In this document: positions 1 to 17,728 of the stretch, one piece after another
How positions within the stretch are numbered: position 1 is the first letter of the stretch
How the letters are laid out: each line of letters starts with the position of its first letter
Virus record (IMG/VR): IMGVR_UViG_3300009537_000201
Coordinates: 1-21,995 of that record
Source: a virus
Reading direction: 5' to 3' (one strand)
Length of the DNA: 21,995 nt
The notes under the pieces: model-generated
Seen by the model: the letters and a program-made list of their open reading frames with translations, nothing else
Databases searched by the model: none
What the model was told of the DNA's origin: nothing
Position numbers and translations under genes: made by a program

Positions 1-873
1 GACATGAATTTCTACATGGAAGTGCTTACCCGAACGAACGTCACGGTGGGTCCGGTCTACATGACCTTCACTCCGCTGAAGGGCATGAGCGATGTTGTCT
101 CAAGGTTTATGAACGACAAGCCGGAAGGCACGGCGGTCATCCAGATGAGCCTTGAGGACGCCGAGCATTATACGCCCGAACAGCGAAAGGCCATCATGGC
201 CTCTTACCCGGCCCATGAACTTGAGGCCCGCGTTCACGGCGTGCCGGTACTGGGGTCGGGCAAGGTATTCCCGGTCAGGGAGGATTCTATCAAGGTTCCG
301 GCCTTCCACATCCCCGGCTACTGGCCGAGGATCGTAGGGTCGGACTTTGGGTGGGACCACCCTTCTGCCTTCGTGTGGATGGCGTGGGACCGCGACACCG
401 ACACGGTGTATGTCTACGACTGTTACCGGGCGCGCGAACAGACACCGATCATCCACGCCGCCGCCGTCAATTCACGGGAGAAGTGGATTCCGGTGGCATG
501 GCCCCATGACGGGCTCCAGCACGACAAGGGTTCCGGCGTCCAGTTGGCCGAGCAGTACCGGAAACTGGGAGTCAACATGAGAAGGGAGCGGGCCATGTTC
601 AAGGACGGGTCCAACGGGCTTGAGGCCGGGATCATTGAAATGCTCCAGCGGATGCAGACAGGTCGGTTCAAGGTATTCGATCACCTGAACGACTGGTTCG
701 AGGAGATCAGGGTGTACCACCGCAAGGAAGGGCTGATCGTCAAGAAAGCGGATGACCTGATGTCAGCCACCCGCATTGGGATCATGGACCTTCGATTCGC
801 AAGGGTCAAGCCGGACAAGCGCAGGAAGGAGATCGTCAGCTTCGAGGCAATCGACCCGGTTGCAGGGTATTGA
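1..873 (+). CDS. terL: Terminase large subunit, C-terminal part (5' end outside window)
   Basis: This is the motor and nuclease protein that packages phage DNA through the portal. The frame is open from base 1 (the first codon is GAC), so the ATG at base 4 is probably internal and the ATPase Walker motifs lie upstream. About 290 residues are visible, against 450-600 for the family. Counting from the Met at base 4, a TFTPLKG segment (residues 21-27) resembles the ATPase coupling motif. The nuclease domain begins near residue 108 with VGSDFGWDHP. D114, D169 (in PHDG) and D250 or D251 (in KKADDL) are plausible metal-binding acids of the RNase H-like fold. The gene ends 104 bases before the next start. 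The family call is by motif recognition and is quite secure; the subtype is not. Confidence 0.9.
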   Translation, partial: DMNFYMEVLTRTNVTVGPVYMTFTPLKGMSDVVSRFMNDKPEGTAVIQMSLEDAEHYTPEQRKAIMASYPAHELEARVHGVPVLGSGKVFPVREDSIKVPAFHIPGYWPRIVGSDFGWDHPSAFVWMAWDRDTDTVYVYDCYRAREQTPIIHAAAVNSREKWIPVAWPHDGLQHDKGSGVQLAEQYRKLGVNMRRERAMFKDGSNGLEAGIIEMLQRMQTGRFKVFDHLNDWFEEIRVYHRKEGLIVKKADDLMSATRIGIMDLRFARVKPDKRRKEIVSFEAIDPVAGY

Positions 874-977: not shown

Positions 978-1559
978 ATGCAGCCATTTACGCTTTCAGG
1001 GACTTCCGTTGCCGCGAGCCTCACCGGCTTTGCGTCGAACGTCACGGGTGCCACGTTCACCCTGACGGCCAACGACGCCAACGACGACCTCGCCCACAAG
1101 GTCACGGTCAAGAACGATTCCGCGACGGATCATTCCGGGAAAACAGTCGCACTCGTCGGGACCGACGCAGACGGGCGACCGCAGACCGAGACGCTGACTG
1201 GGCCTGGGACGAGCGCGACTGTCACGTCGTCAAAGTATTTCCTGACGCTCACTTCCGCGACCCCAAGCGCGACCATCGGATCGGACACCTTCGACATTGG
1301 TTGGGCGGCTGATGCCGTGACGGCATCCTTCTACCCTGACAAGCACCGCAACACGTTCTCTGTCGGGTTCGAGTGTTCCATCTCTGGAAGCCCTACCTAC
1401 ACGGTTCAACACGCGATGGCCGGAACGACTTGGTACAACCACTCGACGGTCGCCGCAAAGACCGTTGCTGCCGCCGGAAGCTACACGACACCCGTGAGCG
1501 CGATCCGGCTTTTGTTCACCGCCGCAGGAACCGTGACCGTCGAAGGTATCCAAGCCTGA
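978..1559 (+). CDS. Beta-rich phage structural protein, function unknown
   Basis: A 193-aa protein with a strong Shine-Dalgarno (AGGAG, 964-968). It is rich in Thr, Ser, Ala and Gly with short alternating hydrophobic stretches, as in beta-sandwich virion proteins. The first half contains segments such as HKVTVKNDSATDHSGKTVAL and GTDADGRPQTETLTGPG, which resemble small structural proteins of tailed phages. The second half (from about residue 125, ECSISGSPTYTVQHAM) looks like a separate beta domain ending in TVTVEGIQA. There is no signal peptide or membrane segment. It stands between terL and the fibre genes, so a fibre-attachment or virion-surface role is possible, but this is inference. A head decoration protein is the main alternative. 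Confidence 0.7.
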   Translation: MQPFTLSGTSVAASLTGFASNVTGATFTLTANDANDDLAHKVTVKNDSATDHSGKTVALVGTDADGRPQTETLTGPGTSATVTSSKYFLTLTSATPSATIGSDTFDIGWAADAVTASFYPDKHRNTFSVGFECSISGSPTYTVQHAMAGTTWYNHSTVAAKTVAAAGSYTTPVSAIRLLFTAAGTVTVEGIQA

Positions 1560-1595: not shown

Positions 1596-2837
1596 TTGGC
1601 GTTCGCTGAATACTACGATTCAACGGGGGCACCGGGGAGCGGGAGCGCGGGGTCGAGTTCTACCATTCGGGCCGAGTTCGACGCGATCCAGGATGCTTTC
1701 GACAAACTGCCGGACCTTTCCGGCAACGCGAGTCTGCCGGTCTTTGTCAATTCCGGCGAGACCGCGCTTGAGGCGGTTTCCGCATCATCCGCCCGCACAA
1801 ACCTCGGTCTTGTCATCGGCACGAACGTACAGGCGTATGACGCGCAACTGACCGATCTCGCCGGGCTGTCGTATTCCGGCAACGCGCTTAAAGTGGTGCG
1901 CGTCAACTCGGGGGAAACGTCCTTTGAATTGGCCGCAGTCACGGGAGATGCCGCGACCGCAAGCCCGTTGAGTCAGTTCGCGGCGACGACTTCCGCCCAA
2001 CTGGCCGGGGTCATTTCAGACGAGACGGGTTCCGGCGCGCTGGTATTCGCCACAAGCCCAACCCTAGTCACCCCGGCCCTCGGGACGCCCTCCAGCGTAA
2101 CGCTCTCTAACGCAACGGGCCTTCCTGTATCAACGGGGATTACAGGACTGGGCACAAATGTTGCGACGTTCCTCGCAACCCCGTCGAGCGCCAACCTTGC
2201 GGCTGCGCTGACGGATGAGACAGGAAGCGGTGCGGCGGTATTCGCCACAAGCCCGACGCTAACAACTCCGACTATCGGGGTGGCGACGGCTACCTCGGTC
2301 AACAAAGTGGCGATTACCGCGCCTGCGACCTCCGCGACACTGACCTTGGCCGATGGGTCCACGCTTGCGCTTTCAGGGGCGTATAGCTGCACCCTTACCG
2401 TTTCCGGCGCGACGACCCTGACATTGCCGACCTCAGGAACGCTGGCGGTGTTGGGAGCCAATACGTTCACCGGGGCGCAGGCCCTCGGGAACAACAACCT
2501 GCTTTCGATCAAGCAGGCGACGTACAACTCAGAGATCGACGACGGCAACAGTTCCACCGCCGACACGATTGACTGGTCAGCCGGGCATCGGCACAAGTCA
2601 ACTCTAACCGGGAATTGCACGTACACGTTCATCGCCCCAAGTGGGGTGTGTTCGCTTGTGCTGAAGGTCGTCCAGGACGGGACCGGGAGCCGCACCGTTT
2701 CATGGCCTGCGTCGGTCAAGTGGGGGAGCGGGACACCACCTACGCTTACGACCACGGCCGGGGCCACTGACATCGTCGGGCTTTACTACGACGGCACGAA
2801 CTACTACGGTGCCGTCATGGTGGCTGACGCATCGTGA
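1596..2837 (+). CDS. Tail fibre protein, module A (TTG start)
   Basis: A 413-aa fibre-like protein. The start is the TTG at 1596, with GGAG at 1584-1587. The nearby ATG at 1589 opens only a 6-codon frame, and the TTG start aligns exactly with the N-terminus of the fibre at 3636: about 46 of the first 71 residues are identical without gaps (AEYYDST at 4-10, RAEF at 25-28, TALEAVSA at 56-63). This N-terminus probably attaches the fibre to the particle. Next comes VQAYDAQLTDLAGL, then two FATSPTL repeats 65 residues apart with ALGTPSS and TGLP signatures, as in many phage tail fibres. The C-terminal 105 residues (near GVCSLVLKVVQDGTGSRTV and GLYYDGTNYYG) form a beta-rich tip domain of a type I recognise from other phage fibres. 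It overlaps the next gene by 4 bases. Confidence 0.8.
   Translation: MAFAEYYDSTGAPGSGSAGSSSTIRAEFDAIQDAFDKLPDLSGNASLPVFVNSGETALEAVSASSARTNLGLVIGTNVQAYDAQLTDLAGLSYSGNALKVVRVNSGETSFELAAVTGDAATASPLSQFAATTSAQLAGVISDETGSGALVFATSPTLVTPALGTPSSVTLSNATGLPVSTGITGLGTNVATFLATPSSANLAAALTDETGSGAAVFATSPTLTTPTIGVATATSVNKVAITAPATSATLTLADGSTLALSGAYSCTLTVSGATTLTLPTSGTLAVLGANTFTGAQALGNNNLLSIKQATYNSEIDDGNSSTADTIDWSAGHRHKSTLTGNCTYTFIAPSGVCSLVLKVVQDGTGSRTVSWPASVKWGSGTPPTLTTTAGATDIVGLYYDGTNYYGAVMVADAS
1989..2075 (+). repeat. Fibre repeat, copy 1 (residues 132-160)
   Basis: This encodes a 29-residue unit centred on DETGSGALVFATSPTL. A second copy starts 195 bases downstream (2184). Protein similarity is much higher than nucleotide identity, so this is an old duplication under protein-level constraint, typical of trimeric fibre shafts. 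Confidence 0.7.
2184..2270 (+). repeat. Fibre repeat, copy 2 (residues 197-225)
   Basis: Second copy of the 29-residue unit, centred on DETGSGAAVFATSPTL. It aligns without gaps to the unit starting at 1989. Confidence 0.7.
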
Positions 2838-3634
2838 GCATTACCAGCGGCGGATCAATCGGTTCCGGCGGGTTCACAAGCACATCGAGCGGGACGACGC
2901 TCACGATTACCGGAGTCACCGCTTCGGTGAATGATGAAATCATTCTCCCGATTGCCGCTGACAACTACCACACGACATTCGGGTATCTGCACGACATCGC
3001 AAGCGTTACCGATTCGGCGGGGAATTCGTGGGCGATCCTAAACGACAACACGAATGACGCGGCTTACACATACAGCCCGACCAGCACGCAGAACGACGGC
3101 GCGACCATCGCGTTGTTCCACACAAAGGTCACAAGCGCCCTGTCATCCGGGACGATCACGATTACTTTAGGCCACGCCAAGACCGCGAAGGCCGCGTCCC
3201 CGTGGAAGTTCACGGTCGGGGCGGAGATGAGGTTGGCTGTCATGTCCAGCAAAACTGTTGGTGCAGGGAAAACATTTGATAGCGTCAGCAGATACACGGC
3301 TTGGCCGCTTTCTTCGCTATCAATATCTGGGTTACAGTCCAATGAATATCTGTTCTTCCGGGCAACTGGTGGGGAAATTGCCACATCACCTGGCAGCGTT
3401 ACTTATACCAGTGGGTTTTCAAATATCAACGAAAGAATTGCAAATACCGGATCGTCTCCCACATCAATGATCTGCGGTGCGGAGTTCAAAGTAGAGACGA
3501 CCACAAGCAAGACCAGTTCGCCAGCTATTGATATGTACCCAGGTACTAGAGATTTTTCCAGCATTATGATCGCCCTCAAGGAAGTCCCCATCGCATCCGC
3601 CGCAGGCGGCATGATGATGGCGGTGGGATTCTAA
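2834..3634 (+). CDS. Beta-rich fibre-associated protein, module A partner (GTG start)
   Basis: A 266-aa protein starting with GTG at 2834, which overlaps the upstream TGA by 4 bases, so translation is probably coupled. It is Ser/Thr/Gly-rich and predicted to be all beta. Segments such as [14 protein letters not shown], then [25 protein letters not shown] and [11 protein letters not shown] near the end, match in order SDTQGNTWTKAKEW, GYTKL, SEYKIETSAGSTSDPG and ASVFVAFYG in the gene at 5701. The two therefore look like distant paralogues. It ends in a Gly/Met-rich tail ([11 protein letters not shown]). The second half (from about 3240) is visibly less GC-rich than the first. Its place after each fibre gene suggests a fibre-tip, adhesin or fibre-chaperone role; I cannot decide which. 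Confidence 0.65.
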
Positions 3635-3635
3635 A

Positions 3636-5699
3636 ATGTCGAGCGCCGAATACTACGACTCCACGAACGCCCCGGCGCAGAACTCGGTCGGCTCAAGCGC
3701 CACGATGCGTGCCGAGTTCAACGCGGTCGAGGCCGGGTTCGGGAAACTTCCCGACATTGCCGGGAACGCCAACAAGGCGATATTCGTAAACGCCGGGTCA
3801 ACCGCCCTTGAGGCGGTGTCGGCGGCGACGGCAAGGACGAACCTTGGCGTCAGCACCGCGCTCTACACCGACTACGGTATGTCGTTCACATACAGCACGA
3901 CAACCACGATGGCCGATCCGGGCTCAGGCGTGATCCGGCTGGACGACGCTGATCTAACGCTTGTCACCGCAGCGGCGATTGACGATCTTTCCGCGAACAC
4001 CGGGAACCCGGATGTCTCTACATGGATACTATCGTGGGACGATAGTACGAGTACTGTTCGCGGCACGCTGTTCCTGCGAAAAGTATCCGCGATGGAGAAC
4101 TTCGCCGTGTACAGCATCACGGGTGCGTCCACCGATAACTCCGGGTGGACGCAGCTTGCTCTCACATACGTCACACACAGCGGGTCATTCTCGAACTCAG
4201 ACCCGTTGATCGTGGCGTTTTCGAGGGCCGGCGACCTTGGCGCGACAGGACCGACAGGGGCGACCGGGGCTGATTCAACGGTTCCTGGCCCGACAGGACC
4301 AACCGGCGTGACTGGCGCGACCGGGGATACTGGCCCGACAGGGCCGACCGGGGATACTGGCCCGACAGGGCCGACCGGGGCAGATGGAGATATTGTTGAT
4401 GGCGCAACGCTCGCAACCGGCCTGACGTTCCCGAATACCGGGCTGCACCTGCTGGACACGAACGCCAGCCACGATCTGATTATCGCGCCGGGGTCGGACC
4501 TCACGGCAGATCATACCCTGACGATTACGACCGGGGATGCAGACCGGACGCTAACTCTCAGCGGTGACGCAACCGTAAGCGGGACGAATACGGGCGACCA
4601 AACCTCTGTTTCAGGGAACGCCGGGACTGTTACGGTAGCGGATGCCGGCGGCGATACGACCACATGGGTTTTGCTAGGCACAAGCCAAACCGGGAGCCTG
4701 TCTCCGGCGACGGACGCAGGGCTTACTTACGATGCCGACACCAACGCGCTCACGGCGACAACCTTTGTTGGGGCGTTGACTGGAACGGCGAGCGGCAATC
4801 TTGTATCTGGCGGCGCACTCGGCACCCCGTCCAGCGGTACGCTTACGAATTGTTCTGGATTGCCAGCAGCGGGCGTTTCAGGGACCGCGCTTGTCTCAGC
4901 AGACATTGGGTCATCTGTTCAAGCCTACGATGCAGGACTGGCTTATCTGGATGGCCTGAATTTCACAGACGAGTCCACGTTCAAGGCCGGTGTCAATCTT
5001 GAAATCGGCACGGATGTTCAAGCCCACGACGCCGAACTCGCCGCCATTGCGGGCCTGACTTCAGCCGCCGACAAGGTTCCGTACTTTACAGGTTCCGGCA
5101 CCGCCGCAGTTGCGGACCTGACTGCCACTGGCCGCTCCATCATTGACGACACCACGATTGCGGCTGTGCGCACGACCATCGGCGTTGGCATGACAGATTT
5201 CATGGTGCTGTCAGCCGCAGGCGGGAACCCGACTACGACCAGTGGTTGCGCTGCGGTTGCTCAAGCCGAAACCACCACGAACAAGATCAATACATGGGTT
5301 CTGGACTTCGACGCCGCGACTCAAGAGAACGCATTTTGGGACGTTCGGATGCCGTCGAATTGGGACGCCTCCACTGTCACGGCTCAGTTCATCTGGACCG
5401 CCACCAACACCGGCAACGTGGTGTGGGGCATTCAGGCTGTTGGCTTTTCGGACGATGACGCGCTGGACACCGCCCACGGAACCGCGCAGGAAGTGACGGA
5501 CGGCGTTACAGTTGCAAACGACGTGATGATTTCCGCCGCGACCTCCGCTCTGACTATCGGCAACAGTCCCGCCGCAGGCGACTACACCGTGTTCCGGGTG
5601 TACCGAAAAGCCGCTGATGGGGCCGATACCTGTACTGTGGACGCAAGACTGCTCGCGGTTCGCATCGCCTACACCGTGACCAAGCTGGGGCAGGTGTAA
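3636..5699 (+). CDS. Tail fibre protein with collagen-like region, module B
   Basis: A 687-aa protein that starts one base after the previous stop. Its N-terminus is the paralogue of the fibre at 1596 ([27 protein letters not shown]). The order is: attachment domain (about 1-72); a beta domain with EYAVYSITG-like features to about 198; a collagen-like stretch of 16 Gly-X-Y triplets, mostly GPT, GAT and GDT, broken once by STVP (199-252); a beta region with [15 protein letters not shown]; two VQAYDA/VQAHDA fibre repeats; and a C-terminal beta domain (about 528-687) that contains [20 protein letters not shown]. Collagen-like shafts are known in phage fibres and form trimeric stalks. It is probably a receptor-binding or stalk protein. 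There are no membrane segments or signal peptide. Confidence 0.8.
4230..4391 (+). repeat. Collagen-like Gly-X-Thr coding repeat
   Basis: This encodes residues 199-252 of the module B fibre: five triplets ([15 protein letters not shown]), a STVP break, then eleven more triplets dominated by GPT. Within it a 27-base unit is repeated exactly in tandem (4323-4349 and 4350-4376), which points to a recent slippage or unequal-crossover expansion. Thr fills most Y positions, as in many bacterial and phage collagens that lack hydroxyproline. Confidence 0.88.
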
Positions 5700-5700
5700 G

Positions 5701-6426
5701 ATGCCTTTCTCTTTAGACAGCGGCAACGTAGGAACTACATCCCAATCTTCGGGTCCGTACACAAGTTCCACAGCGACTGTTACTAGTATCTGTGCAGTTG
5801 GAAAGTTGCTGACGATGGAGGTACGGACGAATGATTCCGGGAGCGATGGCGAAACGTCGAACCATACTTCGGCATCAGATACACAAGGTAATACATGGAC
5901 GAAAGCAAAAGAGTGGTCAAATAGTAGTTCCACCACAACCTCACTCTGGTACTGCGTTGTCGCTACTGGACTCACTACGTCCGACACCGTAACTGTCAAT
6001 TTTTCGTCGGCCAATTATACGATACAAAGATTGAACTTATGGTCGAATCCTTACAGCACTATCGGGGTAGATGGTTCAACAGGCGATGCGACCGACGCGG
6101 CGGCTGGTCCGGTTACGCTGGTTTTATCGTCTTTAACCTCAAGAGAACATATCTATTTTCGTCTCGATGGCGTAGATAACGGTGCTGCCCGAGTTGATTG
6201 GGCCGCAAGCACCGGATACACAAAGTTATCTACCATTGGCGGCGTTTTTCGTGGCATAGGATCAGAATACAAGATAGAAACCAGCGCAGGTTCGACTAGC
6301 GATCCGGGGGATTCGACTTCCGAAGGTAATCGGGCGTCAGTATTTGTAGCGTTCTACGGAACCAGCGGAGCAACTCACCAACGCTCCCCATCCGGCGGCG
6401 TAGCTTACGGAGGTCATTCGTACTAA
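5701..6426 (+). CDS. Beta-rich fibre-associated protein, module B partner
   Basis: A 241-aa protein with its ATG one base after the previous stop. It is Ser/Thr-rich, with SDTQGNTWTKAKEW near residue 60, SREHIYFRLDGV near 155 and SEYKIETSAGSTSDPG near 198. These match the order of similar segments in the gene at 2834, so it is probably a distant paralogue. It ends in GGVAYGGHSY. Its base composition is clearly lower in GC than its neighbours: rough counts give 38-50% per 60 bases, against about 60% in the fibre upstream. That suggests separate acquisition or rapid exchange. Likely a fibre-tip or host-contact protein by position; no catalytic motif is visible. Confidence 0.65.
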   Translation: MPFSLDSGNVGTTSQSSGPYTSSTATVTSICAVGKLLTMEVRTNDSGSDGETSNHTSASDTQGNTWTKAKEWSNSSSTTTSLWYCVVATGLTTSDTVTVNFSSANYTIQRLNLWSNPYSTIGVDGSTGDATDAAAGPVTLVLSSLTSREHIYFRLDGVDNGAARVDWAASTGYTKLSTIGGVFRGIGSEYKIETSAGSTSDPGDSTSEGNRASVFVAFYGTSGATHQRSPSGGVAYGGHSY

Positions 6427-6893
6427 TGAAATACGCGCTCATCAAAGACGATCAGGTCACGGAATATCGTGAGTATCCTACTCAGGTCGAATCGAAGCAT
6501 ATCAACGGCAAGCCGATGCTGCGGCCTGTCCGGTATGTCTCCGCCGTCGGGTATGACTCCAGAATCCACACCAAGGCCGTGACGACCACGATCACGGATA
6601 CCGAAGTGGTGCAGGAGGAAGCGTTGACGGAGCGCCCGCTTGCCGATGTTCAGGCCGAATCCATGCGGCGTGTCAGGGACGAAGCGCGGGACGCGATTGA
6701 AAGCGCCTACCCTGACTGGTACCAGCGCAACATCGGGATGGGTCTTGAGACGGACGAAAGCGCAGCGCAGCGTTGCCGGGACTTCATTGCCGCCGTGCGT
6801 ATTGCGAGCAATGCGGCGGAAGATGCCATTGGCGCGGCAACCACTGTCACAGATGTTGTCGCGGTCACGCCGAACTGGCCGGTTCCGCAATGA
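6426..6893 (+). CDS. Small phage protein following the fibre genes, possible fibre-assembly factor
   Basis: A 155-aa protein whose ATG shares one base with the upstream TAA (TAATG), so it is probably translated by re-initiation. The N-terminus (MKYALIKDDQVTEYREYP) is short and beta-like. The C-terminal half is helical (SMRRVRDEARDAIESAYPDW, CRDFIAAVRIASNAAEDAI). A beta head with a charged helical tail, placed directly after fibre genes, is the layout of tail-fibre assembly chaperones, but I see no diagnostic motif, so that role is an inference. It overlaps the next gene by 4 bases. Confidence 0.6.
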   Translation: MKYALIKDDQVTEYREYPTQVESKHINGKPMLRPVRYVSAVGYDSRIHTKAVTTTITDTEVVQEEALTERPLADVQAESMRRVRDEARDAIESAYPDWYQRNIGMGLETDESAAQRCRDFIAAVRIASNAAEDAIGAATTVTDVVAVTPNWPVPQ

Positions 6894-7063: not shown

Positions 7064-7070
7064 GGGCTTA

Positions 7071-9305
7071 ATGGAAACCGAACAGATCGAGAACGAAAGT
7101 CCGCAGGCAGATTTCGAGAAGCTGGATTCCCTCGGCCTTTCGCTTGCCAAGAGCCGGTCAGAATCAATTTCGGCAAGGCGATCTTCCGGCATCGAGGACC
7201 GCTGGACCAAGGCCGAGGAACAGTACGAGGGCATTGACGACGCCAACCGTTCGCAGGGCGCATCCATTGATTCTCGCGGCGCGTTCAGTTCCAGTTCATC
7301 CGGAACCAAGGCTACCCGGTCAACGGCCTATGTGAACATCACCCGCCCGTACACGGACGCTGCATCGGCCCGCGTGGCGGATATGTTGCTGCCGACCGAC
7401 GAGCGTAACTTTGGCGTTGATTGCACTCCGGTCCCCACAAGCCTGATCGACATGGCGAAGGGGAAGTTCACCAAGGGCCAGCAGGGACAGATCGAGGCGG
7501 CGACCGCAGGGAACCCCGGACTGATGGCGCAGACCATCAACCAGGCGAAGGAAGAAGCCGACAATCTTATCAAGGAAATGCGCGCCAAGGCCAAACGCGC
7601 CGAGGACCGCATCGAGGACTGGTTCATCGAGGGGCAGTATTACAGTGTTGTGCGCGAGGTCATCGAGGACTCCGCGAAATACGGTGTTGGCATTCTCAAG
7701 GGGCCGTATCCTGTCAAGCGCAAGACGAGCGCCATTTTTGAAAAAGACGGCCAGATTCAGATTGTCATGGAAGAAAAGATCGTCCCCGAGTCAAAGCGCG
7801 TCAACCCGTGGAACTTCTTCCCCGACCCGGCCTGCGGTGGCGACATTCGCAAGGGCGGGCATATCTGGGAGCGGGACACCATCACGCGAAAGGGATTGCG
7901 CGACCTGAAGGGCGTGGACGGGTACATCGACGAGCAGATCGACGCGGTGCTGGCCGAGGGGCCGCAAGCCGCTGAAGCGGAAGTCAGGACCGAGTTCTCC
8001 GAGAACACCGGCACCGACAAGCCGTATGAAATCTGGTATTACCAGGGGTGCCTCGAAGCCGAGGACATGCGGGCCGCCGGGTGCGAGTGCGATGACGGCG
8101 ATTACATCGACGCCTTCATCACGCTTGTCAACAACCGCGTGATCCGCGCCGTTACGAACCCGCTCGATACCGGCGAGTTCATCTACGACACGATGCCGTG
8201 GCAGCGCAGGTCCGGCAGTTGGGACGGCATCGGGATTCCAGAGCAGGGCGAGACGCCGCAGCGCATCGTGAATGCCGGTGTTCGCAACATGATGGACAAC
8301 GCCGGCATCGCGGCGGGCGGGATTTTCCTATACCGCGACGGGTCTATCGAGCCTGTGGACGGGAAGTGGGAACTCGGGCCGCGCAAGTTCTTCCGCATCG
8401 GCGAGGATGCGGAGGTCGTCAACACCGAGCAGATTTTCAAATACATCGAAATCCCCATCCGCCAGCAGGAATTGGGACAGATCATCCAGTTCGCGCTCAA
8501 GGTCATGGAGGACGTAACCGGCCTCCCCATGATTATGCAGGGCCAGCAGGGCAAAGCCCCGGAGACGGTCGGCGGGATGCAGTTGCTCAACGCCAACGCA
8601 TCCACCGTGTTACGGCGCATCGCCCGCATATTCGATGACCGCGTGACCGAGCCGCACGTCAGGCGTTACTACGCATGGCTGCTTCAGTACGGCGAGGACG
8701 AAAAAGAGAAGGGCGACTTCCAGATTTTCGCAAGGGGTTCGACCGCGCTTGTCGAGCGCGACCAGCAGACGCAATTCCTGATGCAGTCCGTCCCGCTCGT
8801 CCTGCAAGCCCCGCCGAATGTGACCGGGATCGACACGAAGAAATTCCTGAAGGCTGTTTACAAGAATCAGAAGATGGACACCGAGGAATTCTTCCTGACG
8901 CCGGAGGAACTGACGAAGATCGAACAGACGATGCAGAAAAGCCAGCAGCAAAAACCGGATCAGGGCACACAGATCGCCCAGGTCAAGGCGCAAACGCAGG
9001 TCGCGTTGCAGGACAAGGAACAGAAGTTCGAGGCGCAGGAAAACCAGAAGGACCGCGAAACTGAACTGGCTATCGCAAGGCTCGAACACCAGTTCAACAC
9101 CATGAAACTCAACGGCGACCGCCAATCGAACATCGAGGAACTAAAGGCGAAGCTGGCTGAGATCACGATGGAACTTCGCAGTTCACAGGCTGAAACGGCG
9201 GCGAAACTCAAGACCCAGCGCGATCTGGGTTCGGTGCGCCCCGTGACCAAGCCGCCGACTGAGCCTCCGGGCCGCGCCCCGGCAGGGATGGCGTACCAGA
9301 GATGA
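7071..9305 (+). CDS. Portal (head-tail connector) protein
   Basis: The portal forms the dodecameric ring at one capsid vertex through which DNA enters and leaves. I chose the ATG at 7071 (METEQIENES, 744 aa), which has GGGG at 7063-7066 just upstream; the frame extends to an ATG at 7020, but that lies inside the preceding gene. The length matches podovirus portals (P22 about 725, N4 about 763). Typical segments are VNPWNFFPDPACGG in the first half and MEDVTGLPMIMQGQQG from residue 479, followed by VGGMQLLNANASTVLRRIAR. The C-terminus (about 621-715) is Gln/Lys/Glu-rich and predicted to be coiled coil, like an extended portal barrel. It overlaps the next gene by ATGA. Confidence 0.88.
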   Translation: METEQIENESPQADFEKLDSLGLSLAKSRSESISARRSSGIEDRWTKAEEQYEGIDDANRSQGASIDSRGAFSSSSSGTKATRSTAYVNITRPYTDAASARVADMLLPTDERNFGVDCTPVPTSLIDMAKGKFTKGQQGQIEAATAGNPGLMAQTINQAKEEADNLIKEMRAKAKRAEDRIEDWFIEGQYYSVVREVIEDSAKYGVGILKGPYPVKRKTSAIFEKDGQIQIVMEEKIVPESKRVNPWNFFPDPACGGDIRKGGHIWERDTITRKGLRDLKGVDGYIDEQIDAVLAEGPQAAEAEVRTEFSENTGTDKPYEIWYYQGCLEAEDMRAAGCECDDGDYIDAFITLVNNRVIRAVTNPLDTGEFIYDTMPWQRRSGSWDGIGIPEQGETPQRIVNAGVRNMMDNAGIAAGGIFLYRDGSIEPVDGKWELGPRKFFRIGEDAEVVNTEQIFKYIEIPIRQQELGQIIQFALKVMEDVTGLPMIMQGQQGKAPETVGGMQLLNANASTVLRRIARIFDDRVTEPHVRRYYAWLLQYGEDEKEKGDFQIFARGSTALVERDQQTQFLMQSVPLVLQAPPNVTGIDTKKFLKAVYKNQKMDTEEFFLTPEELTKIEQTMQKSQQQKPDQGTQIAQVKAQTQVALQDKEQKFEAQENQKDRETELAIARLEHQFNTMKLNGDRQSNIEELKAKLAEITMELRSSQAETAAKLKTQRDLGSVRPVTKPPTEPPGRAPAGMAYQR

Positions 9306-12334: not shown

Positions 12335-13174
12335 ATGATTAACTGGCAAGCATTTCGTCAGGTTGGCGTTTACGACAAGCTGCGCTTCAAGAAAAACGCC
12401 GTCATCCTCACCGAGAATTCGGACGGCACCGAGACTTCACTTGCTGTCGCTGAACTCGCCGCGCTGAATGACTTGGGCGCGACCGATCTTCAGAAGATTG
12501 ACGGCATCACAAACGGGACCGCCGCCGCGAACAAGGCACTGGTGCTGGGCGCGTCCGGGGAAATCGCAACAATTACCTCTGCAACTATTACCACGCTTAC
12601 CGCACCGAATATGGCTGGTAATGTAACATTTGCTGATGGTACTACGGATGTGGACTTTGCCTCGCATGATGGCACGAATGGCCTGAAGCTGGGCGGGACG
12701 CTTGTTACGGCGACTGCGGCTGAAATCAATCGCGCTTGCGATTCTTCGGCCAAGGTTGTGACCACGACATCTACGGCGTTGAGCCTGACCGTGACGCAGC
12801 ACGCGAATCGAATCGTTCTTATCAACACCGACTCGACCGTCGCCAACACATTCACCCTGCCGGCCGCGACCGGAAGCGGCGAGAAGTTCGAGCTTGTGAA
12901 CAACATCGCCCAGACGCAGGGCACGGTTGTTATCGCGGCCAACGGGACGGACGTGATGAGCGGCATCTGCATCGCGCTCGACTCGACCGCTGCGGCCGAC
13001 GCCATGTGCTTCCTGACTTCCGCCACTTCGGACAAGGTGACGTTCAATCTCACCACGACCGGCGGGCTTGGGCAGGATACCGTGGAGGCGTGGGACGTGG
13101 CCGCGAATACCTGGCGCGTGAAGGTCATCATCAACGGGTCGGGCAGTCTCGCAACGCCGTTCTCAGAAACCTGA
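12335..13174 (+). CDS. Beta-rich structural protein, possible head fibre or decoration protein
   Basis: A 279-aa protein with a strong Shine-Dalgarno (GGAGG, 12321-12325). The N-terminal part (MINWQAFRQVGVYDKLRF) is followed by ELAALNDLGATDLQKIDGIT and NGTAAANKALVLGASGEIAT, segments that recur in phage fibre and head-fibre proteins. TAAEINRACD near residue 129 is another such motif. The C-terminal half is beta-rich (HANRIVLINTDSTVANTFTL, EKFELVNNIAQTQGTVVIAA). Because it lies downstream of the coat gene rather than in the fibre cluster, a fibre or decoration attached to the capsid is plausible. This is inference from motif style and place. Confidence 0.65.
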   Translation: MINWQAFRQVGVYDKLRFKKNAVILTENSDGTETSLAVAELAALNDLGATDLQKIDGITNGTAAANKALVLGASGEIATITSATITTLTAPNMAGNVTFADGTTDVDFASHDGTNGLKLGGTLVTATAAEINRACDSSAKVVTTTSTALSLTVTQHANRIVLINTDSTVANTFTLPAATGSGEKFELVNNIAQTQGTVVIAANGTDVMSGICIALDSTAAADAMCFLTSATSDKVTFNLTTTGGLGQDTVEAWDVAANTWRVKVIINGSGSLATPFSET

Positions 13175-15002: not shown

Positions 15003-15686
15003 GTGTCCACTTTCCTCGAACTTTGCAAGGACGTTCGCCGCGAAGCGGGGATTTCCGGTACTGGCCCGTCCGCCGTGACGGGTCAGACCGGGGAAATGGC
15101 CCGCGTGGTCGAGTGGGTAAACGCCGCGTGGGTGTCCATCCAGAACTCGCAACGCTATTGGCGCTGGATGCGCTCTACCGCATCGGCCACGACAACCACG
15201 GGTGACAATTCGTACACCTATTCCGATTTTTCCATCACTTCCTTCGGTTTCTTCCATCCGCAGACATTCTCCATCTATACCACTTCCGTCGGGCAAGGCG
15301 ACGAGTCCATTCTTTCGTACATGCCGTGGGACTTGTGGTATCAGACCTACAACTTCGGCGGCGGCGCTTCCATCCAGAACCGCCCCGCGCACGTTTCGAT
15401 TGATCCCTCCAACAACGTCAGGCTTGGGCCGAAGCCGGATTCCACCGGCTATACGATCCGGTGCGAATACCAGAAGGCGGCGACGGAAATGTCTGCTGAT
15501 GCGGACGAACCGGAAATGCCTGCACGGTTTCATTCCGCGATTGTCTGGTGGGCGCTCAGGCATTACGCCCTGTACCAGTCCGCGCCTGAAGTCTTGGAAA
15601 GGGCGGGGCGCGAACTGAGGACTGTCATGGCCGCGCTCAAGGCCGACCAGTTGCCGGATATTTATTTCGCGGGTCCGCTGGCGTGA
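15003..15686 (+). CDS. Head-tail adaptor protein (SU10-adaptor-like)
   Basis: A 227-aa protein with a GTG start directly after the previous TAA. The N-terminus (STFLELCKDVRREAGISG, then GQTGEMARVVEWVNAAWVSI) is the helical pattern I recognise from phage adaptor proteins that bind below the portal. The middle is beta-rich and aromatic (YMPWDLWYQTYNFGGG, HVSIDPSNNVRLGPKPD). The C-terminus is helical (FHSAIVWWALRHYALYQSAP). Position between head genes and the nozzle candidate agrees. It overlaps the next gene by GTGA. The family match is from memory of the pattern. Confidence 0.75.
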   Translation: MSTFLELCKDVRREAGISGTGPSAVTGQTGEMARVVEWVNAAWVSIQNSQRYWRWMRSTASATTTTGDNSYTYSDFSITSFGFFHPQTFSIYTTSVGQGDESILSYMPWDLWYQTYNFGGGASIQNRPAHVSIDPSNNVRLGPKPDSTGYTIRCEYQKAATEMSADADEPEMPARFHSAIVWWALRHYALYQSAPEVLERAGRELRTVMAALKADQLPDIYFAGPLA

Positions 15687-17728
15687 GAGGGACGCAACTC
15701 CCGCAAACGCAGGTTATATTCATCCCGTTCCGGGGCGGGTTTGACGACGAGACGCCACCGCTTTCAATCCCGCATGGCGTCGTCAGGTCCGCGCAGAACT
15801 TTGAGAGCGACATCAACGGCGGGTATTCCACGATCACCGGGTACGAGCGGTTCGATGGCAGGACCGCGCCATCGGACGCGATCTATGCCGTCATTGACAT
15901 AACCCTCACCGGGGCCATCTCGGCGGGAGACACCATCACTGGGGTCAATTCCTCCGCGACCGCAGAAGTCGCGTCCAACAACACGACCAATCTGGTCATC
16001 ACGAAGATCGCAGGCACATTCGAGTCAGGCGAAGTCCTGAACGTCGGCGGCTCTCCACAGGCCACGACGACATCCGCCGCAACGGTGGATGGTGCCGCGA
16101 CGGCAGAGCTGCACGCAATCTATAAAAACCAGGCCGCCGACATATACCGTGATGATATTGCAGCCCCCACCGGATCGGGTTCGATCCTCGGGGGATTTTA
16201 TTTCGGTGGCACCTGTTATGTGTTCCGAAACAACGCGGGTGGCACCGCCGCCGATATGTGGAAGTCCACCACGTCAGGGTGGTCGCAGATCACGTTCTTC
16301 TACGAAGTGTCGTTCACCGCTGGCTCAGGGTCAGAGCCGGCGGAAGCCGCGACCATCACGCAGGGCGCTGTTTCTGCAACAGTCAAGCGCGTCGTACTTG
16401 AGTCCGGGTCATGGGCGGGCGGGACGGCGGCTGGGCGGTTCATCGTGGACACGCCATCTGGCGGGAGTTTCACGGCGGGGGCTTTCACGGCCGGGGTCAC
16501 GGCCACATGCTCCGGGGCCGAATCCGCCATAACGCTTTTACCGGGTGGCAGCTTCAAGGCCGTCCAGTACAACTTCGGCGGCGGGGCTAGTACGAACCGC
16601 ATCTACGGATGCGACGGCGTGAACCGTGGCTTCGAGTTCGACGGCACCGTATTCGTCCCGATCACTACCGGCATGACGGACGACACGCCTGATTATGTGA
16701 TGGGGCACAAGAACCATTTGTTCTTCTCGTTCGGGTCAAGCGTCCAGCACTCATCCGCGGGATACCCGTACCAGTGGACCCCCGTGACGGGGGCGGCTGA
16801 ACTTGGCGTAGGGGAAGATGTAACCGGGTTCATGCCGGCACACGGTTCTGAACTCGGTGGCGCGATGATCATCACGACGCGCAACAGGACATACGTTTTG
16901 TACGGGTCAAGTTCGTCTGACTGGAACCTCGTCACGTTTTCTGCCACGACCGGGTGCATCGGAAAGACAATGCAGGACATGGGGCCGGTGATTATGTTCG
17001 ACGACCGTGGGCTTACCAGCCTTTCAGCCGCGCAGTCCTACGGCAACTTCGCATCGAAAACGCTGTCTCGCAACATCCAGCAATGGTTGAGCGACAAGAG
17101 GACATTGACGACCTGCTCAAGCGTCAACCGGGACAAGACGCAGTACCGCCTGTTCTTCTCGGACGGGAGCGGCGTCTACGTTACATTCGACGGGAACAAG
17201 GTTGTCGGCATCATGCCGGTGGCGTTTTCCGATCAGGTGACGTGTTCGTGGGAAGGCGAAACTTCAACCGGCGCATTCGTGTCGTTCTTCGGTTCCACGG
17301 ACGGGAAGGTTTACCAGTTCGACCGGGGCACGTCGCTGGACGGGGACTCAATCGAGACGTATCTGTACGTTGCGTTTGATTTCGTCAATTCCCCCCGCGT
17401 CAACAAGCGATACCGCAAGGCCGTGTTCGAGGTCCAGGGTGACGGATACGCCGAGTTCGTGTTCTCGTATGAACTTGGATACAACAGTTCTGAAATATCC
17501 CAACCCGGCAGCACGACATACGAAACGAACTTTTCGTCCGTGCGATGGGACTCCTTTACATGGGACGCCTTTGTATGGGACGGGGCAACGCTTTCCCCGA
17601 CTGAGGCGGACATGACCGGGACTGCGGAGAACGTTTCGATCCGCGTTTCCAGCAACACGGACTATTTCTTCCCGATCACATTATCCGGCGTGCTGCTCCA
17701 TTACACACCAAGGAGGCTGCTGCGATGA
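15683..17728 (+). CDS. Large tail nozzle / tail-tube-like structural protein (candidate)
   Basis: A 681-aa protein starting with GTG at 15683, which overlaps the adaptor stop by 4 bases. The N-terminus (FRGGFDDETPPLSIPHGVVR, then NFESDINGGYSTITGYERFD) is a pattern typical of long structural proteins encoded right after the adaptor in podovirus-like phages. The rest is beta-rich, with a Thr/Ala/Gly-rich insertion (about residues 70-150 and 200-270) and later segments consistent with a propeller-like body (ATGCIGKTMQDMGPVIMFDD, YRLFFSDGSGVYVTFDGNKV). By position it would form the tail nozzle that continues the DNA channel below the adaptor. There is no enzyme motif. The function is inferred mainly from context. 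Confidence 0.7.
   Translation: MRGTQLPQTQVIFIPFRGGFDDETPPLSIPHGVVRSAQNFESDINGGYSTITGYERFDGRTAPSDAIYAVIDITLTGAISAGDTITGVNSSATAEVASNNTTNLVITKIAGTFESGEVLNVGGSPQATTTSAATVDGAATAELHAIYKNQAADIYRDDIAAPTGSGSILGGFYFGGTCYVFRNNAGGTAADMWKSTTSGWSQITFFYEVSFTAGSGSEPAEAATITQGAVSATVKRVVLESGSWAGGTAAGRFIVDTPSGGSFTAGAFTAGVTATCSGAESAITLLPGGSFKAVQYNFGGGASTNRIYGCDGVNRGFEFDGTVFVPITTGMTDDTPDYVMGHKNHLFFSFGSSVQHSSAGYPYQWTPVTGAAELGVGEDVTGFMPAHGSELGGAMIITTRNRTYVLYGSSSSDWNLVTFSATTGCIGKTMQDMGPVIMFDDRGLTSLSAAQSYGNFASKTLSRNIQQWLSDKRTLTTCSSVNRDKTQYRLFFSDGSGVYVTFDGNKVVGIMPVAFSDQVTCSWEGETSTGAFVSFFGSTDGKVYQFDRGTSLDGDSIETYLYVAFDFVNSPRVNKRYRKAVFEVQGDGYAEFVFSYELGYNSSEISQPGSTTYETNFSSVRWDSFTWDAFVWDGATLSPTEADMTGTAENVSIRVSSNTDYFFPITLSGVLLHYTPRRLLR

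Follow-up and report, generated by a model that had tools for sequence, protein, structure and literature searches.

Podoviruses with two receptor-binding proteins are already known; in K1-5 and KP32, an adaptor or a branched arrangement connects these proteins. The cultured coliphages PTXU04 and Pondi (Xuquatrovirus) and their relative HelliStehle_Bas95 carry two tandem fibre genes behind the gene for the nozzle protein of the tail, both starting with Y-F/Y-N anchors. For SU10 (Kuravirus), cryo-EM revealed that W839, W847 and W857 of the nozzle protein gp17 form a quasi-threefold star, clamped by the residues Tyr23-Ile24-Tyr25 of gp16, the trimeric short fibre (PMC9509320). In SU10, a single short-fibre gene adjoins the nozzle gene, and fibres of the second type are attached to the adaptor instead of the nozzle (PMC9509320).

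Here, we describe a new form of dual-fibre arrangement in a 21,995-base IMG/VR virus fragment from an uncultured phage; this whole stretch of DNA is referred to as the window. It encodes two fibres, FibA and FibB, with the same type of N-terminal anchor, each followed by a beta-rich partner protein. The likeness to SU10 consists in three Trp residues, predicted to be quasi-threefold, in a putative dock loop of the nozzle, in aromatic residues close to the N-terminus of the fibre with a helix behind them, and in fibre genes that adjoin the nozzle gene in most relatives of the window; the Trp spacings are 8 and 10 in SU10 (PMC9509320) compared to 5 and 5 in the window. PTXU04, Pondi and HelliStehle_Bas95 share with the window a homologous nozzle with a single W triad, but their fibres are encoded behind the nozzle gene, no ParA- or ParB-like partner lies between them and their anchors are distant. 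In the uncultured contigs L027-L036, two tandem fibres carry the anchor of the window and the nozzle has one triad; these fibres, too, lie behind the nozzle gene without a partner between them, and the dock reads WG rather than WD. K1-5 and KP32 would have in common with the window two specificities per particle, but the window fibres carry one and the same anchor. Finally, HMO-2011-type phages have a related portal and nozzle with a fibre behind the latter, and differ in their anchor class (GYTRQ...GHxHDG) and in a Y/F-based nozzle repeat.

Gene layout of the window

The genes of the window make up a podovirus set comprising the large terminase subunit (terL), portal, a scaffold-like protein, an N4-gp56-type major capsid protein (MCP), an adaptor and, as nozzle, a stabilization protein of the P22 gp10 type, and the phage is a short-tailed, uncultured podovirus of the P22/HMO-2011 type. 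It is most closely related to uncultured contigs, L004 among them (MCP 80%, portal 64%), and to MW202426, another uncultured phage; HMO-2011-type phages are more remote. The features relevant to the fibre locus are as follows:

4..873, + strand: C-terminal part of the large terminase subunit, truncated at the contig start (PF17289, E 3e-18; phrog_5653, E 4e-25)
978..1559, + strand: g978, beta-rich protein between terL and fibA (no family match)
1596..2837, + strand: fibA, tail fibre 1, 413 aa, TTG start (anchor profile E 8e-28; PHROG tail fibre matches to the C-terminal domain)
1596..1811, + strand: FibA anchor domain (EYYDST...), predicted to plug into the nozzle (46 of 72 residues shared with the FibB anchor; family alignment)
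2834..3634, + strand: parA, first beta-rich partner, 266 aa (overlapping fibA by GTGA; L004 orthologue with 51% identity; all-beta AF2 model of low confidence)
3636..5699, + strand: fibB, tail fibre 2, 687 aa (anchor profile E 3e-28; PHROG tail fibre matches)
3636..3851, + strand: anchor domain of FibB (46/72 identity to the FibA anchor)
4227..4388, + strand: GPTG repeat of collagen type in the shaft of FibB (PF01391, E 3.8e-6, slightly below its cut-off; repeats D1/D2)
5701..6426, + strand: parB, second beta-rich partner, 241 aa, of foreign composition (z 8.5 against ParA; GC3 0.459, z -6.6)
6426..6893, + strand: g6426, small protein (position and size only; no significant family match)
7068..9305, + strand: portal protein (phrog_332, E 1e-50)
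15003..15686, + strand: head-tail adaptor (phrog_10775 tail protein, E 6e-8; homologue in MW202426 annotated 'head completion adaptor')
15683..17728, + strand: nozzle, P22 gp10-type 'stabilization'/'head-closure' protein (homologues so annotated in MW202426, vB_Pun_Y3 and Vibrio phage 1.232)
17546..17578, + strand: predicted fibre dock WDSFTWDAFVW, a triple W-D-x-F-x repeat, nozzle residues 622-632 (translation; conserved in 48 nozzles; resemblance to the SU10 Trp star)

The genes fibA, parA, fibB and parB, which the original prediction had placed at the correct coordinates, follow each other end to end, with the GTGA overlap at position 2834 and 1-nt gaps ahead of fibB and parB, and no promoter or terminator signals above shuffles were found in this gene set. 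The place of g978 is taken by a different small protein in L054 and L020. Judged by position and size, g6426 may correspond to the fibre-assembly-like small protein that related phages often carry there.

Two annotation matters were noted in passing. PHROGs and several GenBank records give the name 'amidase' to homologues of the nozzle protein, probably a misannotation. In addition, positions 12335-13174 encode a 279-residue fibre-like protein behind the capsid genes, perhaps a head fibre, the N-terminus of which recurs on two consecutive ORFs of L008 (8098-9486 and 9592-10344).

Two fibres with a common anchor

Residues 1-72 of FibA and FibB align without gaps and with 46 identities (64%; BLASTP E 2e-26), in agreement with the originally predicted similarity of the N-termini and divergence of the remainder: beyond this region, only short low-complexity patches match between the two fibres. 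Both N-termini belong to a family of YY anchors, defined by an aromatic pair, a conserved R-x-E and an F..LP motif (profile E 8e-28 and 3e-28), in which all 49 rows have the aromatic pair at positions 6-7. No credible match to the anchor turned up in the PDB, and the anchor was not found in bacterial genomes. A phase-variable or invertible fibre system was rejected, the inverted repeats being imperfect and chance-like, on account of these repeats and the absence of a recognisable recombinase or reverse transcriptase among the window ORFs, the main genes of which were scanned against families.

A profile built from six anchors retrieved 54 loci in one IMG/VR scan. Together with the earlier loci, 66 fibre genes from 58 loci, several near-identical contigs included, were surveyed for their placement. 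The nozzle gene was the nearest annotated upstream gene for 54 of the 66 fibre genes, in 53 cases within 77 nt, and another 8 followed a further anchored fibre in tandem. The remaining four, namely fibA and fibB of the window and the fibres of L004 and L054, lie in or next to the interval between terL and portal, the L054 contig ending before the portal. In the window, both anchored fibres are located in this interval and none behind the nozzle gene. As to copy number, 17 of 21 larger records contained one anchor and four (L029, L031, L034 and L036) contained two; tandem anchored fibres also occur in L027-L036, in L003 and in the cultured Xuquatrovirus phages. On these sequence comparisons, the anchor is an attachment domain of podovirus fibres that occurs throughout the group in linkage with the nozzle gene; that two fibres carry it therefore does not suffice to demonstrate a duplication event. 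It had been anticipated that the idea of a duplicated cassette would suffer if the N-terminus occurred on many non-duplicated fibres at random places; the former was indeed observed, with one copy in 17 of the 21 records, but placement was far from random, being nearly always behind the nozzle gene.

The fibres L004:917-1591 and L054:3282-4826 have nearly the same C-terminal domain of approximately 100 residues (DGTAPVGTLANG...NEWIFYSKNTRTGKVL), the two loci being otherwise distant.

A tryptophan triad in the nozzle as putative fibre dock

Some 50 residues ahead of its C-terminus, the window nozzle reads WDSFTWDAFVW. Among 48 aligned nozzles, W622 and W627 were each conserved in 46, W632 in 41 (otherwise mostly F or Y) and F630 in 44 sequences, while the flanks and the rest of the loop were variable. 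Altered triads were found in L070, where the triad is F-based, and in L003, L014, L016, L051 and L055, where the third W is replaced by F or Y. A PDB search with the nozzle profile yielded no credible match. Three near-identical pentapeptides in one chain fit a threefold-symmetric ligand, and by analogy to the Trp star of SU10 the loop may serve as the fibre dock. The expectation that phages with two fibres have two triads was refuted: all examined nozzles with the C-terminal triad, including those of the window and of the tandem-fibre contigs L027-L036, have it once. Accordingly, both fibres are predicted to use the same docks.

In L027-L036, the dock reads WGxFxWGxFxW instead of WD, and the first anchors have GNP instead of GSS, whereas the second anchors keep S21. 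A covariation of D-to-G/N in the dock with S21 of the anchor was considered and dropped, because the second fibres of these contigs combine S21 with a WG dock.

As a control group, we used HMO-2011, CRP-345, RHph_N3_19, phiM6 and HTVC104P, whose fibres have a different N-terminus (GYTRQ...GHxHDG). None of these five nozzles contains a W triad; a Y/F-based triple repeat, e.g. IYGSSTYGTATYGG, is found in the same place, and the fibres lack the YY anchor. This joint change of anchor class and nozzle loop class, along with the very strong genetic linkage between anchor and nozzle gene, argues against the alternative that the shared N-terminus is a generic fibre domain without information on nozzle attachment. 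Although the PDB search found no structure of the anchor and docking is proposed by analogy, we regard this alternative as very unlikely. The Y/F triple repeat in the place of the W triad, noted for the HMO-2011-type nozzles of L086, L087, L088, L091 and L094 with their GHxHDG-type fibres, hints at a possible dock-key code. In its full form, such a code would pair the W-D-x-F-x repeat with YY anchors and a Y/F-G-x-x-x repeat with GHxHDG anchors, and a single dock class serving both fibres would lead to particles with random mixtures of two receptor-binding specificities from one genome; we put this forward tentatively, as a proposal that may well turn out either way and that we would not yet favour.

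The prediction of only one dock type, and the fact that relatives with a single fibre are the rule (17 of 21 records), could also mean that the two fibres are not equivalent, one of them being the working fibre and the other decaying or a mere reserve for recombination. However, both ORFs are intact with conserved anchors, and the diverged relative L004 (MCP 80%) likewise keeps two fibre genes at this place, the first of which is seen by its C-terminal end only. We therefore consider non-equivalent fibres quite unlikely.

The partner proteins ParA and ParB

The proposed order of short motifs in the two partners was borne out by their alignment, which extends across the greater part of both proteins and comprises DSAGNSW/DTQGNTW, EFKVET/EYKIET and a late strand. 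BLASTP aligned ParA and ParB over 94 residues (E 3e-5), and the full Smith-Waterman score of 127 compared to 51.9 +/- 8.8 for shuffled sequences (z 8.5; 0 of 1000 as high) and to a best score of 83 among 790 other ORFs of related phages. The resemblance is a weak signal from a single pair, as the ParA orthologue of L004 reached only z 1.8 against ParB. The profile-profile comparison suggested in the original prediction was a small one with too few sequences and gave 12% probability, and the suggested structure predictions returned beta-rich AF2 models for both partners, albeit with low confidence (pLDDT 54 for ParA and 47 for ParB). Taken together, the sequence data suggest that ParA and ParB are probably distant homologues.

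Searches of phage genomes, plasmids, PDB, Pfam and PHROGs revealed no significant relatives of either partner, and in IMG/VR a relative of ParA was found in L004 only and none of ParB. Foldseek searches of BFVD with the low-confidence ParA model matched many phage minor tail proteins and uncharacterised beta proteins at E 2e-5 and weaker, and neither partner model matched a PDB fold at E <= 0.001. Matches to a PRD1-like fold were dropped, with TM about 0.25. Judged by gene order and the low-confidence beta models, each partner most likely acts on the fibre encoded ahead of it, as a separate protein of the tip or surface that contacts the receptor.

Fibre assembly factors of the Tfa/gp38 type are encoded directly behind the fibre gene in overlapping or abutting frames. 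Since parA and parB are placed in the same manner, they could alternatively be assembly factors or chaperones for their fibre that do not become part of the virion. The predicted all-beta structure and the many minor tail proteins among the BFVD matches of the low-confidence model speak against such a function, and g6426 may already fill the usual place of a fibre-assembly-like protein, so that we judge it rather unlikely and prefer the assignment as tip or surface proteins.

The C-termini of several fibre-adjacent proteins consist of a Gly/hydrophobic stretch with a final aromatic residue (..GGMMMAVGF, ..VAYGGHSY, ..AAAGAFNF and ..VVFGCNF), as seen in window positions 2834-3634 and 5701-6426 and in L003:9161-9781 and L003:13087-13764.

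Module stacking versus tandem duplication

The original prediction of a duplicated receptor-binding cassette held insofar as the two fibre types share an attachment domain and each has a partner; that one cassette had been copied in tandem did not find support. In situ duplication, in which a fibre-partner cassette was copied head to tail and shafts, tips and partners diverged afterwards, would account for the same two-gene order, the homologous anchors (E 2e-26) and the weak resemblance of the partners (z 8.5). The two window anchors, however, resemble those of other phages as much as they resemble each other: FibA is 66% identical to L035, and FibB is at similar distances to L034 and L035. 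In the anchor tree, which is based on 73 columns only, FibA and FibB were not sisters, FibA grouping weakly with L004 and FibB lying outside, and the second anchors of L027-L036 formed a clade of their own. An AU test did not reject the sisterhood of FibA and FibB (p 0.32), nor did it reject other pairings.

The composition of the genes points in the same direction as these distances, in that parB has a GC3 of 0.459 compared to 0.729 +/- 0.041 for the other genes (z -6.6; parA z -2.3). A comparison with related phages, also proposed initially, returned single anchored fibres in 17 of 21 records and, in L004, the order of a FibA-type fibre end (VLWASGTAPTLTTTAGATDLIGFYYDGSNYYGAAMVLDAS), ParA (51% identical), a 224-residue anchored fibre with an unrelated body and the portal, without parB. 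Thus, the first slot with fibA and parA was kept and the second slot was exchanged. Moreover, L027-L036 have tandem anchored fibres without such partners. On this evidence, in situ duplication appears unlikely, and the sequences are better explained by modules stacked and exchanged on one type of anchor than by copying.

Discussion

We consider it probable that the locus as a whole is a two-slot cassette which arose by module stacking and whose two fibres use the same nozzle docks. The receptor-binding cassette would occupy the terL-portal interval, whereas such fibres are usually encoded behind the nozzle gene. FibA and FibB would be made from one tightly packed gene set and would form trimers with unrelated shafts and tips. 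Through its aromatic pair (EYYDST), the anchor of about 70 residues is predicted to clamp the W loop WDSFTWDAFVW near the nozzle C-terminus. A hexameric nozzle with one loop per subunit would offer six equivalent docks, for which FibA and FibB would consequently share or compete, giving rise to progeny with mixed or alternative fibres. The earlier suggestion of two fibre types or alternative fibres on a common attachment domain thereby gains a concrete form from the single dock motif and the SU10 precedent, with mixed or alternative occupancy of the docks as its predicted outcome. ParA and ParB would each act on the fibre that precedes them, most likely at its tip or surface, and the cassette would have originated by stacking and exchange of modules on the common anchor rather than by a single copy event.

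The window nozzle family has no detectable sequence homology to SU10 gp17 (hhalign probability 0.2%), and the dock is thus a match in motif and position that is possibly convergent. By analogy, the window locus may work like the short-fibre dock of SU10, used here by two fibre types, although it does not belong to the SU10 family by sequence.

If this is right, the loose idea of 'two fibres' becomes a defined interface of three Trp residues versus an aromatic pair, which is testable in cultured coliphages such as PTXU04. For a large group of uncultured podoviruses, part of the host-range apparatus could then be read from sequence: the nozzle repeat would indicate the accepted class of fibre anchor, and counting the anchored fibres in a genome would distinguish particles of single specificity from those of mixed specificity.
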